From Gammaproteobacteria bacterium (lineage in GTDB: Bacteria > Pseudomonadota > Gammaproteobacteria > S012-40): a stretch of 44,106 bases of DNA. Numbering within the stretch: the stretch's first letter is position 1; the number at the start of each line of letters is the position of its first letter. Of this stretch, positions 32,340-44,106 are shown piece by piece. The position numbers were made by a program, and so were the translations under genes. Below the pieces are notes generated by a model that saw only the letters and a program-made list of their open reading frames with translations, was not told where the DNA came from and did not search any database. The DNA lies in contig JALUUH010000068.1 of NCBI GenBank assembly GCA_027021445.1, positions 1 through 44,106 of the forward strand, given 5' to 3'.

Positions 32340-32425
32340 GGGTCAGACTCGATATAGTGATCATCGAGTCTGACCCTTATATAATAGACCCTGATATAAT
32401 ATGACCCTAGTATAATATCCGACCC
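32340..32425. repeat. REP-like hairpin followed by phased GACCC repeats
   Basis: GGGTCAGACTCGAT (32340-32353) pairs perfectly with 32363-32376 across a 9-nt loop: a 14-bp stem just after the methylase stop, of the GGGTCAGACTC type found with RAYT transposases. It is followed by three imperfect units ending in GACCC (TTATATAATAGACCC, TGATATAATATGACCC, TAGTATAATATCCGACCC), 15, 16 and 18 bp long. It may terminate transcription as well. The remaining gap to 32622 contains nothing I recognise. Confidence 0.65.
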
Positions 32426-32702: not shown

Positions 32703-33191
32703 ATGACGTCACTTAATAATCATTGCCCGGTCTGTGGTATGAAAACGGAAGCGGATGTTCCTTCTGTGGAGTACCACAAAATGTATTTTCATTTCTGTTC
32801 TGAACAGTGTCGGGAAACATTTGTTGCCCATCCGGTTCTCTATAGTACTAAAGTTGGAAAGCAACGAAATGAAATTCTTAAACGACGAACCATGCGCCTG
32901 GCCGAACCAGTGAATGACGAGCTGGCGGAGCTGATTATTCCCTATTTGACAGCGGTGATGGGTGTGCAGGAGGTGGTTGTTGAGAGTGACAAAGTAAACA
33001 TTACCTATGATTTGTTACAGGTGACGGAGAGTCAGATCGAAAAAATGTTGCATGAGATCGGTCTGCAGCTTGGCGGCAGTTGGTTGGAGATTCTACGCCG
33101 TGGCTGGGTACACAATAGCGAAGAGATCGAACTGGAAAATTTGGCGGCACCACCTGCGCCACATTATAACCACACACCACCACAGTCCTGA
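32703..33191 (+). CDS. YHS-domain protein with C-terminal HMA-like fold
   Basis: A 162-residue soluble protein starting at ATG 32703 (GAGG seven bases upstream; the frame open to 32592 crosses a repeat). Residues 8-47 form a YHS domain with CPVCGM and FCSEQCRETF, a probable Cys-based metal site as in copper and mercury loci. Residues ~65-120 (LAELIIPYLTAVMGVQEVVVES, VNITYDLLQVTESQIEKMLHEIG) look like the beta-alpha-beta fold of heavy-metal-associated domains but without the CxxC. The tail is Pro/His-rich. First gene of the metal locus, 14 bp before the PII-like gene; probable metal chaperone or sensor. Confidence 0.7.
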   Translation: MTSLNNHCPVCGMKTEADVPSVEYHKMYFHFCSEQCRETFVAHPVLYSTKVGKQRNEILKRRTMRLAEPVNDELAELIIPYLTAVMGVQEVVVESDKVNITYDLLQVTESQIEKMLHEIGLQLGGSWLEILRRGWVHNSEEIELENLAAPPAPHYNHTPPQS

Positions 33192-33205
33192 CGGAGGTAA
33201 TAGAG

Positions 33206-33532
33206 ATGGACTATCGAAAAGTGACCGCGATTATCCGGCGCGATGTACTGGAAAAAGTGGAGCGAAAATTACAAGAGATGGGGGTGCAGGGAATTAGTGT
33301 CACCAAGGTCAAGGGCTATGGCGAATATGTAGATTTTTATTCCAGAGACTGGATGGTAAACCACGCTAGGATCGAGATATTCACGCATGAAATAAATGCT
33401 GATGCCATTGCTCAGGCTATCATGGAGGCGGCTCACATGGGTTTGAAAGGTGATGGCATTGTTGCGGTATTGCCCGTGGAGAAACTCTACCGAATCCGCA
33501 CACGTGCGCTAGCGGAAAGTGACGAAATTTAA
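33206..33532 (+). CDS. PII-like signalling protein with shortened T-loop
   Basis: A 108-residue protein with the PII fold: MDYRKVTAIIRRDVLEKVERKL, GVQGISVTKVKGYGE, MEAAHMGLKGDGIVAVLPVEKLYRIRT (B-loop and C-terminal motif). The T-loop is shorter than in GlnB/GlnK (YGEYVDFYSRDWMVNHARIE) and lacks the uridylylated Tyr-51 context. It sits between a YHS protein and a DUF2231 protein rather than beside amtB or glnA, so a nitrogen role is unlikely; a metal-linked or transporter-linked PII (compare CutA/PII superfamily) is inferred. A GGAGG site precedes the ATG. Confidence 0.85.
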   Translation: MDYRKVTAIIRRDVLEKVERKLQEMGVQGISVTKVKGYGEYVDFYSRDWMVNHARIEIFTHEINADAIAQAIMEAAHMGLKGDGIVAVLPVEKLYRIRTRALAESDEI

Positions 33533-33562: not shown

Positions 33563-34165
33563 ATGCCTGAAATTATACCTAATTTTCATCCCATTTTTGT
33601 CCATTTCACGGTGGCATTGTTGTCACTGTCTGTGGGGCTTTTTGTTATCACACCGTTCATAAAGTCGCCCCTTAAGGAACAATGGCAAACCGTTGCTTAT
33701 TGGTCATTGTGGTTTGGCGCGGGTATTACGGTTATCACCGGTTTTGCTGGGCTTGATGCCTATAATACCGTGGCTCACGATACTCCATCACACCTGGCAA
33801 TGACCGAGCATCGCAACTGGGCCATCGTTGCTATTGTGTTGTTCCTTGCGTTAGCTGCTTGGTCCATCATCTGGGTGCGCAAGAGCAGAGACTTAGGTAT
33901 TGCCTTTGTGATTTCCATGGTCATCGCAGGCGGAGTATTAGCCTCTACCGCGTGGCATGGTGGTGAGCTGGTTTATCGCTATGGTTTGGGCGTGATGTCA
34001 TTACCTAAGGCGGAAGGTGAAGGTCATAGCCATAGCGGCGGCGGTGGTCACGATCATGCTGATAATAACAGTAAAGCTGGTAGTAACCATGACGAAACGA
34101 GTGATATGGAGATGGATTTTGATGGCATGGACGAGACCATGAGTGATGATGGTCATGCGCATTAA
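33563..34165 (+). CDS. DUF2231 membrane protein with His-rich tail
   Basis: A 200-residue inner-membrane protein with four predicted helices: HPIFVHFTVALLSLSVGLFVI, the second around WSLWFGAGITVITGF, NWAIVAIVLFLALAAWSIIW and a fourth near FVISMVIAGGVLAS. The FHPIFVHF and HRNW motifs fit DUF2231. The last 45 residues form a His/Asp/Met-rich tail (GHSHSGGGGHDHAD, DMEMDFDGMDETMSDDGHAH) apparently able to bind metal. Third gene of the locus; the function of DUF2231 proteins is not established, but they are frequent beside copper genes. Confidence 0.78.
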   Translation: MPEIIPNFHPIFVHFTVALLSLSVGLFVITPFIKSPLKEQWQTVAYWSLWFGAGITVITGFAGLDAYNTVAHDTPSHLAMTEHRNWAIVAIVLFLALAAWSIIWVRKSRDLGIAFVISMVIAGGVLASTAWHGGELVYRYGLGVMSLPKAEGEGHSHSGGGGHDHADNNSKAGSNHDETSDMEMDFDGMDETMSDDGHAH

Positions 34166-34239: not shown

Positions 34240-34386
34240 ATGCCACATGAGATTATGGATACGATGCATGATGTAGGAATGCCGGGTAGTCATCATTGGT
34301 TGTTTTGGGTGATTGTGGTAGCAGGGTTTGCGTTATTGTTATTTTTGGTTTGGAGGTTTGCTATACGCAGTAAACGCTCTGAATAA
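34240..34386 (+). CDS. 48-residue single-pass membrane peptide
   Basis: A small frame with GGAGG six bases before ATG 34240: MPHEIMDTMHDVGMPGSHHW, then LFWVIVVAGFALLLFLVW and a basic RFAIRSKRSE end. It has one transmembrane helix with a short Met/His-rich periplasmic-side segment and a positive cytoplasmic tail, the usual topology of small metal-locus membrane peptides. No family name is offered. It is placed between the DUF2231 gene and the merR-type gene in the same direction. Confidence 0.6.
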   Translation: MPHEIMDTMHDVGMPGSHHWLFWVIVVAGFALLLFLVWRFAIRSKRSE

Positions 34387-34403: not shown

Positions 34404-34435
34404 TTGACCTGGGTGTAGCGCCTAGGTTTTACGCT
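34404..34435 (+). promoter_or_regulatory. MerR-type promoter/operator
   Basis: TTGACC (34404-34409) and TACGCT (34430-34435) are separated by 20 bp, the overlong spacing used by MerR-family activators. The spacer holds an imperfect dyad ACCTGGGTGTAGCGCCTAGGT (34408-34428; arms ACCTGGGTG and CGCCTAGGT). It probably controls the regulator gene 40 bp downstream and the genes behind it. Confidence 0.7.
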
Positions 34436-34474: not shown

Positions 34475-34879
34475 ATGTTAACAGTCAGCGAGCTATCAAA
34501 AGCAGCACAAACTACAGCGGACACAATTCGTCACTATACACGTATTGGCTTGTTAACGCCATTGCGTGACCCTAGTAATGATTACCGGCTTTTTAGCGAT
34601 ACGGACATTAAGAGAGTGAAATTTATCCTTCGTGCCAAAGGACTTGGTTTTACCCTGAGCGATATTAAAATAATTTTTAAACATAGCAATGATGGACAGT
34701 CACCCTGTCCGGCGGTAAGAGATATTATTCGACAGCGCATCGATGAAAACAGGAGTCGGTTGGCTGAGCTCAATGCACTGCAGCAACGAATGGATAAAGC
34801 CCTGGATAAGTGGAAATCGATGCCGGACGGCGAACCTAATGGGGAAGCGATCTGTCATTTGATTGAATCGATCGTATGA
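34475..34879 (+). CDS. MerR-family metal-responsive regulator
   Basis: A 134-residue regulator from ATG 34475 (MLTVSELSKAAQTTADTIRHY); a GTG nine bases upstream is possible. The N-terminal winged helix with IRHYTRIGLLTPLRDPSNDYRLFSDTD is followed by the dimer helix. The metal-site cysteines are in SPCPAVRDII (about residue 75) and the C-terminal AICHLIESIV. The Cys spacing is closer to MerR/ZntR/PbrR-type than to CueR (no CxxxxxxxxC loop), so the metal is uncertain; the neighbouring CopA suggests Cu(I). It should bind the 20-bp-spacer promoter directly upstream. Confidence 0.85.
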   Translation: MLTVSELSKAAQTTADTIRHYTRIGLLTPLRDPSNDYRLFSDTDIKRVKFILRAKGLGFTLSDIKIIFKHSNDGQSPCPAVRDIIRQRIDENRSRLAELNALQQRMDKALDKWKSMPDGEPNGEAICHLIESIV

Positions 34880-34909: not shown

Positions 34910-35437
34910 GTGAAAAACAAATTACTTACGGTAGCGACAGTGGTTCTTTTTGTACTAACTAATATCGCCATAGCAGATAAAGATCATCATAAGGAAGATG
35001 ATTTACCTAAATCTGCGCCCTGTATGATGATGTCGGGTGGAATGCCGATGATGAATATGAAAAAAATGCAAGAACACATGGCCAAGATGCAACAAACCAT
35101 GGAGCGGATACGCAGTACTGAAAATGTTAAACAGCGACAAGAACTCATGCAGCAACATATGAAAGAGATGCACCAAGGCATGGGAATGATGAAGGGCATG
35201 ATGTCAGGTTCGGTCGGTGAGAAACAGATGCACAACAAAATGCCGGGACAGATGAATGGTAAAGCGATGCCGGAAAAAATGACTGAGCGTATGCAGATGA
35301 TGGATATGGCGGACAGTAAGGCTATGAGAGACTGTCACCGTATGATGGAACAGCGGATGGACATGATGCAGGGCATGATGAGTCAGATGACGGAGCATAT
35401 GATGCGGCAACAAAAAATGGATATGGAAATGAAGTAA
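34910..35437 (+). CDS. Met-rich periplasmic protein of the metal locus
   Basis: A 175-residue exported protein with a GTG start after GGAGAC. A signal peptide (NKLLTVATVVLFVLTNIAIA) is followed by a helical region made largely of Met, Gln, Lys, Glu and His (for example MPMMNMKKMQEHMAKMQQTM, HQGMGMMKGMM, MMQGMMSQMTEHMM). Dozens of Met residues give many MxxM-type Cu(I)-binding sites; two single Cys are present. It resembles Spy/CpxP-like or Met-rich copper-buffering proteins in composition only. Located between the MerR regulator and copA, probably copper sequestration in the periplasm. Confidence 0.72.
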   Translation: MKNKLLTVATVVLFVLTNIAIADKDHHKEDDLPKSAPCMMMSGGMPMMNMKKMQEHMAKMQQTMERIRSTENVKQRQELMQQHMKEMHQGMGMMKGMMSGSVGEKQMHNKMPGQMNGKAMPEKMTERMQMMDMADSKAMRDCHRMMEQRMDMMQGMMSQMTEHMMRQQKMDMEMK

Positions 35438-35446
35438 AGTCTTAGA

Positions 35447-35490
35447 TATACCCGTGGTGTTTGAGATATAGGTTTTTAGTGCGCGCCATA
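35447..35490. repeat. Dispersed intergenic repeat (TATACCCGTRGTG family)
   Basis: TATACCCGTGGTGTTTGAGA followed by TATAGGTTTTTAGTGCGCGCCATA matches the two units at 29167-29219. It fills the gap between the Met-rich protein and copA. Confidence 0.65.
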
Positions 35491-35528
35491 TGGCCGTAAG
35501 TAGAATACCAACAGTTAAGGGAGCGACT

Positions 35529-38009
35529 ATGAATACCGATCCAGTCTGCGGTATGGAAGTGGGAGAAAAGGGGAGTCATCACGCGGATCACGATGGCCAG
35601 ACATACCACTTTTGTAGTGAGAGTTGTCAGCACAAGTTCGAGGCTGATCCCACGCAATATGTGCAAAGTGAAGCTATCCCGAATGAATCTATCCCGGAAC
35701 CGGAAAAAAAATCGCATAGCTGCTGTGGTGGCAAGCACCATGGCCATCAAGAGTCGACTGCTGCAAACCAGGTAGTTGATGAGTCGGCGATCTACACCTG
35801 CCCCATGCATCCTGAAATCGAACAGCAAGGGCCAGGTAGTTGTCCCAAATGTGGTATGGCACTGGAACCAAAAGGGGTTCCCTTGATTGCGACCAAAACC
35901 CAATACACCTGCCCTATGCATCCCGAAATCATCCAGGATAATCCCGGTAGTTGCCCTAAATGCGGTATGGCATTAGAGGCGATGACTGTCGAGATGGAGG
36001 ATGATAGTAGTGAACTCGACTACATGAGCAAACGTTTCTGGGTTAGTGCGATATTAGCAATTCCGGTGTTATTCAGCGCGATGGCCGCTGAGTTCTGGCC
36101 GGAAGCGATGGCCGAAGTGATCGACCCCAGCCTGCGCCAGTGGCTTGAAATGATCGTGTCAGCACCCGTGATCATCTGGGGTGGCTGGATATTTTACGTA
36201 CGTGCGGTGCAGTCGGTGGTCACCCTCAATCTGAATATGTTTACCCTGATCGGACTCGGCGTATCGGTTGCGTTTACTTACAGCGTGATCGCAACCCTCT
36301 TCCCCGGCATTTTTCCGCCCGAGGTTTTCAACGATGTCGGCGTGGTGCCAGTCTATTTCGAGGCGGCTGCGGTGATCACCGCACTGATTCTACTCGGCCA
36401 AGTTTTGGAGCTGCGCGCGCGTAGTCAAACCAATGCTGCGATCAAGCTATTACTGGGGCTGGCACCCAAAACCGCACGTATCGTGCGTGAAGATGGCACT
36501 GAAGAAGACATACCCATGGAGCATGTGCAGGTCGGGGATACGCTACGCGTGCGACCCGGCGAAAAAATTCCGGTGGATGGCCGCGCGATCGAAGGCGAAA
36601 GCAATGTTGATGAATCCATGGTCACTGGTGAGCCGCTGCCCGTCGCCAAATCAGCGGGCGAGCGTTTGATCGGGGCCACAGTTAACGGTACGGGCAGCTT
36701 GCTGATGCGCGCCGAGAAAATCGGTGCAGATACCTTGTTATCTCAAATCGTCAATATGGTGGCCGAAGCGCAGCGTTCGCGGGCGCCGATTCAACGCCTG
36801 GTCGATCTGGTTTCGGGCTATTTTGTCCCGGTCGTGGTCATCATCGCAGTGATTACCTTTATTGTTTGGAGTGTGTGGGGGCCAGAACCCGCCATCGCTT
36901 ACGCGGTGATTAATGCGGTCGCCGTATTGATCATCGCCTGCCCCTGTGCACTGGGGTTGGCCACTCCGATGTCCATCATGGTGGGTACGGGCAAAGGGGC
37001 GATGATGGGCGTGTTATTCAAAAATGCGGAGTCGCTGGAAGTATTGCGCAAAGTAGACACACTCGTCGTGGATAAAACCGGCACCCTCACCGAAGGCAAA
37101 CCAAAATTGGTTGCGGTCTTTGCCAATCAGGAGTTTACCGAAAACGATAACCTGCGTCTCGCCGCCAGCCTGGAACGCGCTAGCGAACATCCACTCGCAG
37201 AGGCCATTGTGCAGGGTGCACAAGAGCGCGGCGTGGCGCTCATTCAGGCTGAAGATTTTCAGTCGGTCACCGGTATGGGGGTGACCGGCATTGTTGATGG
37301 CCACAACGTGGCCTTGGGCAATCTTAAATTACTGCAAAGCCTGGACATCGAAGCCGGTGATTTACCGCAGCAAGCAGATAGCCAACGCGCTGAAGGCCAG
37401 ACCGTGATGTTACTCGCGATAGATGGAAAAGCGGCCGGACTCATTGGCGTCGCCGATCCCATTAAAGAAACCACGCCGGAAGCAATTCGTGACCTGCATG
37501 CAGAAGGAATTCGGGTGGTCATGTTAACCGGTGATAGTCGCAAAACAGCCGAAGCCGTGGCCGCCAAGCTCGATATCGACCAGGTACAGGCTGAAGTTCT
37601 GCCTGAGCAAAAAGCGGACGTGGTTAAACAGCTTCAGGCCGAAGGTCATATTGTTGCCATGGCCGGTGACGGCATTAACGATGCGCCCGCTTTAGCCCAG
37701 GCACATGTCGGTGTGGCGATGGGTACGGGTACCGACGTGGCGATGGAGAGTGCGGGCGTGACGCTAGTCAAGGGTGACCTGCGTGGCATCGTGCGTGCGC
37801 GTCGCTTGAGTCGTGCCACCATGCGCAACATCCGTCAAAACCTGTTTTTTGCGTTTATCTATAACGCCGCCGGAGTCCCGGTTGCTGCCGGATTGCTCTA
37901 TCCAGTATTTGGCATTCTGTTGTCACCTATTATTGCGGCCGCCGCCATGAGTTTTAGTTCGGTATCAGTGATCACCAATGCGCTTAGATTGAAACGAGCG
38001 AATGTCTAG
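35529..38009 (+). CDS. copA: Copper-translocating P1B-type ATPase with YHS and two HMBD domains
   Basis: An 826-residue transporter from ATG 35529 ([21 protein letters not shown] upstream; the earlier ATG 35490 lies in a repeat). N-terminal order: YHS domain (DPVCGM, FCSESC; residues 1-45), His-rich linker, two HMBD motifs (CPMHPE...CPKCGM at about 91 and 128) in place of the usual HMA domains. Then eight-helix core with [10 protein letters not shown] (about 471), phosphorylated Asp in DKTGTLTEG (about 515), ExHPLAEAI nucleotide loop and [13 protein letters not shown] (about 712). The CPC motif and late [10 protein letters not shown] and [15 protein letters not shown] segments indicate Cu(I) export. 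Core gene of the locus. Confidence 0.95.
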
Positions 38010-38024
38010 AAGGAGAATTAAACC

Positions 38025-38687
38025 ATGCACGGGGCTAATGAATATGCTTACGGGATGTGGGTGGTGGCCGCGTTTAATATTGGCATCTTCCTGTTTTTCA
38101 TGTTGAGTTTCCTCAAACCACGCGGTGGTCAGGAGTGGCGAAGCATGGGAGTGGTGACTGCGTTTCTGGCCGCGCTATTTGCTGAAATGTATGGATATCC
38201 ATTGACGATTTATTTGTTATCCGGTTGGTTAGGTGATGCCTATCCGGTGTTGCAACCGTTTAGTCATAAATACGGTCATCTCTGGGTAGTGGTGTTTGGT
38301 GGTTCTACGTTGGCGTGGGCGATGGTGATGGGCTTGAGTCTGGTATTTATGCTCATGGGCTATATGCTACTTTCAAAAGGTTGGACCCAGATTCACGGGG
38401 CGCGTGGCGGTCTGGTTTCTGATGGCATCTATGCTTACGCACGCCATCCGCAATATACCGGCCTGTTCCTGGTCATTATCGGTTTTCTGGTGCAGTGGCC
38501 AACATTACTCACCGCTTTAATGGCGCCTATTATGCTCTATGCCTATGTACATTTGGCCAGAGTTGAAGAGCGGCGTGCCGAAGCAGAGTTCGGCGAGGCA
38601 TACAACGAGTACGTGCGTAAAACGCCGGCTTTTTTTCCTCCACTTAAGCAGTGGAAGGCATTTTTAACCGTAGATGTAGGTGATTAG
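38025..38687 (+). CDS. ICMT/PEMT-like membrane methyltransferase
   Basis: A 220-residue protein with about five membrane helices and the isoprenylcysteine carboxyl methyltransferase-type C-terminal motif: GIYAYARHPQYTGLFLVIIGF, then ARVEERRAEAEFGEAYNEYVRKTP. The RHPxY and EExxxxxxFGxxYxxY blocks bind SAM. Such proteins often accompany copper ATPases, but the substrate there is unknown. The gene begins 15 bp after copA with GGAGAA, in the same operon. Confidence 0.82.
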   Translation: MHGANEYAYGMWVVAAFNIGIFLFFMLSFLKPRGGQEWRSMGVVTAFLAALFAEMYGYPLTIYLLSGWLGDAYPVLQPFSHKYGHLWVVVFGGSTLAWAMVMGLSLVFMLMGYMLLSKGWTQIHGARGGLVSDGIYAYARHPQYTGLFLVIIGFLVQWPTLLTALMAPIMLYAYVHLARVEERRAEAEFGEAYNEYVRKTPAFFPPLKQWKAFLTVDVGD

Positions 38688-38698
38688 GAGGTGAGTGC

Positions 38699-38995
38699 AT
38701 GAGTGGTTTAGGGTCGTTACTTTTTTTTGCCATTTTATTTTATCTCATGATGCGCTTTGGCTGTGGAGCACATATGATCCACGGCCATGGCAAACATAGT
38801 CAGCCGCAGAAAAAAAGCAAAGAGGGTAAATATATCGATCCTGTTTGTGATATGGAAGTTGATGCAGATCAGGCTTATAGCATGATGCATGAAGGTGAGC
38901 TTTATCGATTTTGTACGCGCAGCTGTCTGAGTAAATTTGATACTGATCCTGGGCATTATATGAATAAAAAACCTGGAGAAGAACATGTCATGTAA
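38699..38995 (+). CDS. Membrane-anchored YHS-domain protein
   Basis: A 98-residue protein: N-terminal helix (GSLLFFAILFYLMMRFGCG), His-rich HMIHGHGKHSQPQKK, then a YHS domain (YIDPVCDMEVDADQAYSMMHEG, FCTRSCLSKFDTDPGHYM). DPVCDM instead of DPVCGM is a small deviation. A perfect TAGGAGGTG ribosome site overlaps the previous stop, and the gene overlaps DUF5676 by 11 bp. Likely a membrane-tethered metal-binding partner of CopA. Confidence 0.82.
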   Translation: MSGLGSLLFFAILFYLMMRFGCGAHMIHGHGKHSQPQKKSKEGKYIDPVCDMEVDADQAYSMMHEGELYRFCTRSCLSKFDTDPGHYMNKKPGEEHVM

Positions 38996-39275
38996 TCATC
39001 ATCAACAGGGAATTTCATTGCTCGGCGTAGGCCATGCGACCAGCTTGTTATTGGCGATTAGCTTTGTGTTATGCGTTGCTTTTGATTTGCTTCTGCCGGA
39101 GCATGCCATGTACGAAGCTTGGCAAAAACTGCTGCCGGGTTTTGAGTGGATCAGTTGGAAAAGTTTTTTCCTAGGCGTGATTGAAGCCTATGGTTACGGT
39201 TGGTTCTTTGCGTTGATCTGGGTGCCAATCTACAATTTCGTCGTACTTCGAGCAGGACAACAAAATTCGGAGTAA
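38985..39275 (+). CDS. DUF5676 small membrane protein
   Basis: A 96-residue protein with two helices (ATSLLLAISFVLCVAFDLLL and FLGVIEAYGYGWFFALIWVPIYNFVVL) matching the DUF5676 family (GHATSLLLAISFVLCV, W.SF..G..E...YGW..A...V..YN). The N-terminus MSCNHHQQ carries Cys and His. Families of this type sit beside copper ATPases and YHS genes; function unknown. Translationally coupled to the YHS gene. Confidence 0.78.
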   Translation: MSCNHHQQGISLLGVGHATSLLLAISFVLCVAFDLLLPEHAMYEAWQKLLPGFEWISWKSFFLGVIEAYGYGWFFALIWVPIYNFVVLRAGQQNSE

Positions 39276-43078: not shown

Positions 43079-43675
43079 ATGGTCATGGGAACTAAAGTGG
43101 ATGTTGCTTTACATGATATCCGATTACACGGTCGAGGCGGTCAAGGCACGGTCTCCGCCGCTGCATTGCTGGCACTGGCTGCATTTGAAGATGGCTTTGA
43201 AAGTCAGGCGTTTCCGAAGTTTGGCTCCGAACGGCGCGGGGCACCTGTCGAGGCTTATGTACGGGTTAGCCGTTCGCCGATTCGTGCGCATAATCAGGTG
43301 TATACCCCGGATGCGGTGGTGATTCAGGATGCGGGTTTATTGCGTTCTGAGCCACTGCTACGTGGCTTAAAAAGAGGTGGTTTGGTTATCTTGAATGGTG
43401 AGCAGTCCGTCAATAGTGAGCTCGATGATTTTCGCTGGGTTTGCCTGCCTGCGAGCCAGATTAGCGAGCGCCATATTGGTCGGCCTCTGCCTAATACTGT
43501 GTTGTTAGGCGCATTGGCAGCGGCGACGCAGTGGGTAAACCTAACCGCCTTGGAAAAGGCGGTTGCCAACCACTTATCGAAAAAAGGTGAAGCGATGGTA
43601 AAGGCCAATATCGAAGCCCTGCGGGCAGGTTATACCGGTGGTTTAACGGTGCTAAAAGAAGGTGTATCTGCATGA
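43079..43675 (+). CDS. 2-Oxoacid:acceptor oxidoreductase, gamma subunit
   Basis: A 198-residue gamma-domain protein: [20 protein letters not shown] (residues ~15-35), [31 protein letters not shown] and [16 protein letters not shown] are the standard PorC/KorC landmarks. With alpha, beta and (delta) ferredoxin-like subunits it oxidises pyruvate or another 2-oxoacid to acyl-CoA with reduction of ferredoxin. The substrate cannot be read from this subunit. GAGGAG precedes ATG 43079, and its stop overlaps the alpha-subunit start (ATGA). Confidence 0.9.
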
Positions 43676-44106
43676 AAAAATTACTGGAAGGATCACAAGC
43701 CGTGGCTGCAGCGGTGCGCCTGTGTCGACCCCAAGTGGTGGCGGCTTATCCCATCACTCCACAGACGCACATCATTGAACGGCTGGCGCAGGACGTGGCT
43801 AACGGTGAACTGGATGCTGAGTTCATTAATGCCGAGAGCGAGTTTGGTGCGGCGTCCATTGTATTGGGTGCCGTCGCTGCCGGAGCACGTGCATTTACCG
43901 CGACCGCCTCGCAAGGCTTGTTATTAATGATCGAGGTGCTTTATAACATCGCTGGTTTACGCCTGCCGGTAGTCATGGTCTGTGCCAACCGAGCAGTCGG
44001 TGCACCGATCAATATTTGCAGCGATCATCAAGACAGTATGGCCTTACGTGATGCGGGTTGGATTCAGCTTTATGTAGAGAGTAATCAGGAAGCCGTGGAT
44101 ACCTTA
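43672..44106 (+). CDS. 2-Oxoacid:acceptor oxidoreductase, alpha subunit (partial)
   Basis: Read by hand: 145 codons remain open to the window edge. [87 protein letters not shown] and [16 protein letters not shown] are the conserved N-terminal blocks of PorA/KorA. Coupled to the gamma subunit by ATGA. Beta subunit expected just beyond 44106. PorA rather than KorA is favoured by the gamma-alpha order but not proven. Confidence 0.92.

Follow-up and report, generated by a model that had tools for sequence, protein, structure and literature searches.

Gene content of the locus

We analysed a stretch of 44,106 nt (hereafter the window), which comprises positions 1 to 44,106 of the forward strand of contig JALUUH010000068.1 in assembly GCA_027021445.1. 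The source is a Gammaproteobacteria bacterium (Bacteria; Pseudomonadota; Gammaproteobacteria; S012-40), the genome assembly of which is 67% complete. The features considered here are as follows.

32703..33191, + strand: YHS-HMA protein of 162 amino acids, with an N-terminal YHS domain and a C-terminal HMA-like fold without CxxC
33206..33532, + strand: PII-NG-type PII protein of 108 amino acids (PF00543, short T-loop, GEY..F...D signature)
33563..34165, + strand: DUF2231 membrane protein with a His-rich C-terminal tail (Pfam)
34240..34386, + strand: short ORF of 48 amino acids, apparently with one membrane span and without a Pfam match; gene status uncertain
34404..34435, + strand: putative MerR-type promoter-like site, read by eye
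34475..34879, + strand: MerR-family regulator (Pfam and comparison with ZntR and CueR)
34910..35437, + strand: Met/His-rich protein of the copper cluster, probably exported, without a Pfam family
35490..38009, + strand: CopA, a P1B-type copper ATPase with an N-terminal YHS and two HMBD domains (Pfam, motifs)
38025..38687, + strand: isoprenylcysteine-methyltransferase-like membrane protein, which recurs in such copper clusters
38699..38995, + strand: small YHS protein (Pfam)
38985..39275, + strand: DUF5676 two-span membrane protein (Pfam)

The PII gene starts 15 bp after the YHS-HMA gene, with GGAGG preceding its ATG, and the CopA gene lies about 2 kb further downstream. As the first-pass annotation of this DNA had stated, a YHS/HMA-like gene precedes PII, and DUF2231, MerR and CopA genes all follow it on the same strand. 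Inspection by eye showed short stretches of repeated GAGTCTGACCC and TATAATA at 32340-32420, between an rRNA-methyltransferase-like gene and the YHS-HMA gene. Elsewhere in the window, on the - strand at 601-2880, an ORF encodes a complex I 49-kDa-like protein (PF00346, 65 bits) with five tandem HMBD repeats (PF19335, 230 bits) N-terminal of the PF00346 domain, and the gene downstream of it is a relative of NADH dehydrogenase subunit 1. It is unusual for a metal-binding array to be fused with a respiratory/hydrogenase-type subunit in this way.

The CPC, YN and MSxSS motifs of CopA line up with those of E. coli CopA and make Cu(I) the predicted substrate. Having Cys where ZntR has C79 marks MerR sensors of divalent metals. 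The regulator in the window has a Cys at that position, where CueR has none, suggesting that its inducing metal may be other than Cu(I); it also has one C-terminal Cys. This ZntR-like, divalent-metal Cys contrasts with the Cu(I)-type motifs of the CopA encoded downstream. The putative site at 34404-34435 consists of TTGACC, a 20-bp spacer with the imperfect dyad ACCTGGGTGTAGCGCCTAGGTT, and TACGCT; it was picked out by eye, and a standard sigma-70 scan of the window did not list it. The sigma-70 and terminator scans were themselves at or below chance, and a metal-MerR-like operator pattern had no match in the window. Because the promoter-like site falls between PII and CopA, the two genes may be on separate transcripts.

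A PII lineage with a rebuilt T-loop

The ORF at 33206..33532 had been described as a PII-fold protein with a shortened T-loop and no uridylylation Tyr. The fold is confirmed by a PF00543 (P-II) match of 58.7 bits against a cut-off of 25, by PDB sequence matches that are PII proteins in every good case, and by a predicted model (from 4 sequences, mean pLDDT 73) whose top PDB fold matches are PII structures. Comparison with the PDB found no solved structure of this PII subtype; 9P1X, a distant match only, was rejected in that role. CutA1 (PF03091), DUF190, DUF3240 and the c-di-AMP receptor gave no Pfam match at E<=1. The CutA likeness drawn in the first-pass annotation is a weak analogy, and c-di-AMP, which it listed among the ligands to try, has no support.

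We built a profile (A1) from 12 subtype rows and used it to search 369 class genomes and 398 from the phylum. The scores form two sets: canonical PII reaches about 82 bits at most, and the subtype scores 90 bits or more. In the class sample, 38 loci fall in the upper set, equivalent to about 10% of genomes, and 17 loci outside the class do so, from a single family of the phylum; a scan of genome contigs for related loci returned three close relatives only. In the tree, the split between subtype and canonical PII has branch support of 100/100. Relatives from different families are 64-80% identical; they share an invariant core and keep the T-loop signature. The window's genome also carries separate canonical PII genes, one of which adjoins amtB. 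Below the score gap are three divergent short-T-loop PII proteins (L233, L234 and L229; 32-34% identity), whose neighbours also include RND or CopA genes, which makes the metal-linked group wider than our profile cut-off.

An alignment of 60 subtype sequences, the window included, with 22 canonical PII proteins places the T-loop 7 residues shorter in all 60, with the signature GEY..F...D. The claim of a missing uridylylation Tyr stands in part: the RGxEYxV motif is missing from the subtype loop, but the loop of the window protein retains a Tyr/Phe as Y45, and the alignment decides whether Y45 or W49 falls at the Y51 position. In canonical PII, Y51 is the uridylylation site, and 2-oxoglutarate and Mg-ATP are bound with the help of Q39, K58 and K90, as well as R38. 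Within the subtype, R38 is replaced by Glu in 54/60 sequences, Q39 by Tyr in 53/60 and K58 by His in 42/60, and none of the 60 has Lys at position 90; the window protein has Y41, H53 and I85 at the canonical Q39, K58 and K90 positions. Residues that are kept include G27 (60/60), D88 (55/60), G89 (57/60) and R103 (49/60), and R101 is His in 24/60. Because the Q39, K58, K90 and Y51 features are altered while the residues of the nucleotide cleft are largely kept, we suggest that nitrogen inputs are probably gone from the subtype and that residual adenylate binding is possible.

The retained cleft residues (G27, D88-G89 and R103) would also suit a protein that senses energy status only, binding adenylates and coupling ATP-driven CopA or proton-driven RND export to the energy state of the cell, with no metal input. 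We regard this as improbable, because virtually none of the 60 sequences has kept K90 or K58, R101 is often His and the pairing with YHS-HMA, described below, suggests a metal input.

Other positions bear on the main rival to the docking adaptor that we favour below, namely a trimer that binds copper or another metal directly, either like CutA1 or as a chaperone or buffer, through T-loop residues E40, D48 and H53 or a C-terminal motif, and that uses no nucleotides. E40 is conserved in 90%, D48 in 98% and H53 in 42/60 of the subtype, and nine relatives from one subclade (L065, L169, L174, L175, L176, L177, L179, L181 and L184) carry a C-terminal Cys-x4-Cys motif, of which we found no earlier description for metal-linked PII in the literature searched. 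Metal sensing has been proposed for PII-NG proteins by analogy with CutA1 (PMC7726332). However, the window protein has neither a Cys nor the C-terminal motif, no strictly conserved classical set of metal ligands was found in it, the H53 position is Tyr or Cys in 15/60 subtype sequences, CutA1 gives no Pfam match, and the nucleotide cleft still has its GDG and R103. Direct metal binding is an alternative that we consider rather unlikely.

Most subtype PII genes lie near metal genes

For subtype loci and canonical controls, we took flanking DNA reaching as far as about 6.5 kb in either direction and scored it against named reference genes; the controls combined the canonical loci that scored best with our profile, a non-random choice, with records from a plasmid search. 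Copper or heavy-metal genes occur within 6 kb at 52 of the 60 subtype loci (window excluded) and at 0 of the 21 canonical loci. The metal setting noted earlier for a single case thus becomes a measured association. Within the same distance of the 60 subtype loci we found RND genes (33), CopA (27), MerR (16) and YHS-HMA (12), and the seven RND neighbours tested all score above the TIGR00914 cut-off for CusA/CzcA (1193-1321 bits versus 701). The first-pass annotation had named amtB or glnA as the neighbours that would speak against its reading; neither lies within 6 kb at any of the 60 subtype loci, whereas 10/21 canonical loci are beside amtB and 1/21 is beside glnA.

These data also bear on the idea that the gene is an ordinary nitrogen-signalling GlnB or GlnK that came to lie in a metal island by chance. 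Such a protein would account for the P-II domain match, but the subtype forms a separate branch, is without the Y51 T-loop motif, Q39, K58, K90 and any amtB or glnA linkage, and occurs in a genome that already encodes canonical paralogues. Tree, residues and neighbourhood together rule out a canonical nitrogen PII for practical purposes, and we assign this idea almost no weight.

The order YHS-HMA, PII, DUF2231 and MerR is conserved in the closest relatives (L083, L084 and L085), with CopA further downstream in L085 and a CusA-type RND gene upstream in L083 and L084. DUF2231 adjoins PII in 5 surveyed loci. Close relatives sit directly after TolC-MFP-CusA/CzcA genes, and plasmid relatives from Burkholderiaceae (Burkholderia, Paraburkholderia and Cupriavidus) are also in copper clusters, without YHS-HMA. 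Because its closest relatives share its gene order and two of them have an RND gene upstream, the window cluster appears to be a variant of a cluster that contains RND genes. An RND pump was rejected as the partner of PII in the window's own genome: the contig has none, and the 67% complete assembly has no heavy-metal RND match above the CusA/CzcA cut-off. The commonest partner is thus missing or unassembled there.

No tested metal gene lies within 6 kb at 8 of the 60 subtype loci; among those inspected, some are divergent and near unrelated genes such as thrS, and one (L170) has a YHS-HMA/MerR/CopA cluster about 12 kb away on its contig. In L170 and L171, the operon of the subtype PII contains no metal genes but FAD-dependent, methyltransferase, patatin or CBS-domain genes. 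In addition, L171 encodes 2-oxoacid:ferredoxin oxidoreductase-like subunits similar to those at 43079-44106 of the window.

At another locus (L081), the entire copper cluster of the window is conserved, including GDH, but PII is absent, and in L088 the PII is truncated. Both cases would be expected of a degenerate passenger with little function. Against this, identity between families is high, the core is invariant and the T-loop signature is conserved. The genome with L081 moreover retains a subtype PII on the same contig (74746 bases), at L061, about 22 kb from the L081 cluster and behind a TolC-MFP-CusA operon. We consider a passenger very improbable.

A proteobacterial PII group linked to heavy-metal efflux pumps has been described as PII-NG (Sant'Anna 2009, J Mol Evol 68:322, according to the accounts in PMC11617674 and PMC7726332). 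Its Geobacter member GSU2134 shares an operon with czcABC and is induced by cobalt stress (PMC7726332). The window protein fits this group because it has the PF00543 domain, falls in a clade apart from GlnB and GlnK, is linked to heavy-metal pumps, with CopA downstream in the window and CusA/CzcA-type RND pumps beside its relatives, and belongs to a subtype found in proteobacterial hosts. The lineage is therefore one already recognised, which the first-pass annotation did not name.

A recurrent YHS-HMA partner

In the protein encoded just upstream of PII, the YHS domain scores 30.0 bits, slightly below the Pfam cut-off of 30.3, and its Cys11, Cys32 and Cys36 are invariant across 46 sequences. 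The other half gives a weak Pfam match to HMA (E 0.21); it is predicted to fold as beta-alpha-beta-beta-alpha-beta, and HMA copper domains are the top fold matches (E 0.05, probability 0.99) of what is a low-confidence model (pLDDT 56). CxxC is absent from this half, which makes a classical Cu(I) chaperone improbable, and we rejected that identity for YHS-HMA. A C-terminal CCNKPP tail was likewise rejected as a mark of pairing with PII, as it is also present without an adjacent PII.

A separate search found YHS-HMA homologues in 40 of the 369 class genomes at E<=1e-6, some by weak matches. Relatives occur in copper clusters both with and without PII. In 10 surveyed loci, not counting the window, YHS-HMA is within 500 bp of PII, and this adjacency is scattered on the tree, where well-supported branches require no fewer than 4 changes; the pairing thus recurs or persists. 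We found no earlier description of it in the literature searched. YHS-HMA is the best candidate for passing a metal signal to PII.

A proposed role in tuning metal export

Among proteins that integrate the nitrogen, carbon and energy state of a cell, PII proteins are the best studied. For PII-NG, known since 2009, we found no established ligand or target in the literature searched. We hypothesize, with somewhat better than even confidence, that the window protein is a trimeric cytosolic PII-NG adaptor that has lost its nitrogen inputs and docks to a pump or partner encoded nearby, thereby tuning copper or heavy-metal export. Such a trimer would have dropped the GlnD-type T-loop and the 2-oxoglutarate site while being retained in a copper or heavy-metal export module. 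Bound metal and/or adenylate would set its conformation, and the rebuilt, shorter T-loops would then dock on the local export machinery or on a metal-handling partner, much as PII proteins dock on membrane partners, GlnK on AmtB and SbtB on SbtA. The metal-nucleotide sensor envisaged in the first-pass annotation would be a plausible role.

Candidate targets are the CusA/CzcA RND pump or CopA in most relatives, and CopA, the YHS-HMA protein or DUF2231 in the window's genome. CopA is not a trimer, so the analogy with GlnK and AmtB suits CusA better than CopA. We can also envisage a two-part cytosolic copper relay, in which YHS-HMA would bind metal through its three invariant Cys residues and signal to a PII trimer that gates CusA or CopA in the manner of GlnK on AmtB, placing the control of metal efflux after translation; this is a tentative proposal that we consider rather unlikely.

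Beyond these candidate targets, the survey yields a sequence signature by which the group can be found and a recurrent partner in YHS-HMA. If PII does gate export, there would be a post-translational layer of metal resistance outside the scope of models built on transcriptional sensors.

Comparison with known systems

Like PII-NG proteins, the window PII is a PF00543 member from Pseudomonadota that lies outside GlnB and GlnK and is linked to heavy-metal efflux, but its own neighbours differ, being YHS-HMA, DUF2231, MerR and CopA on a contig without an RND pump. CutA1 has a fold class and a metal context in common with it (PMC7726332), whereas membership in PF00543 and the missing CutA1 Pfam match set the window protein apart. 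The YHS-HMA protein resembles HMA copper chaperones and YHS and TRASH domains in its YHS cysteines and HMA-like fold, and differs from the chaperones in an HMA half without CxxC.

SbtB and CPII are, like the window PII, specialised PII proteins encoded beside a non-nitrogen transporter; their partners differ, and the window protein has no Cys motif. We take the C-terminal Cys pair of SbtB to recall the Cys-x4-Cys of the one metal-linked subclade. Compared with GlnK and AmtB, the window PII has no AmtB link, a T-loop 7 residues shorter and replacements at R38, Q39, K58 and K90, but it has in common with that system the PII fold, a transporter-linked gene and, possibly, the logic of docking.
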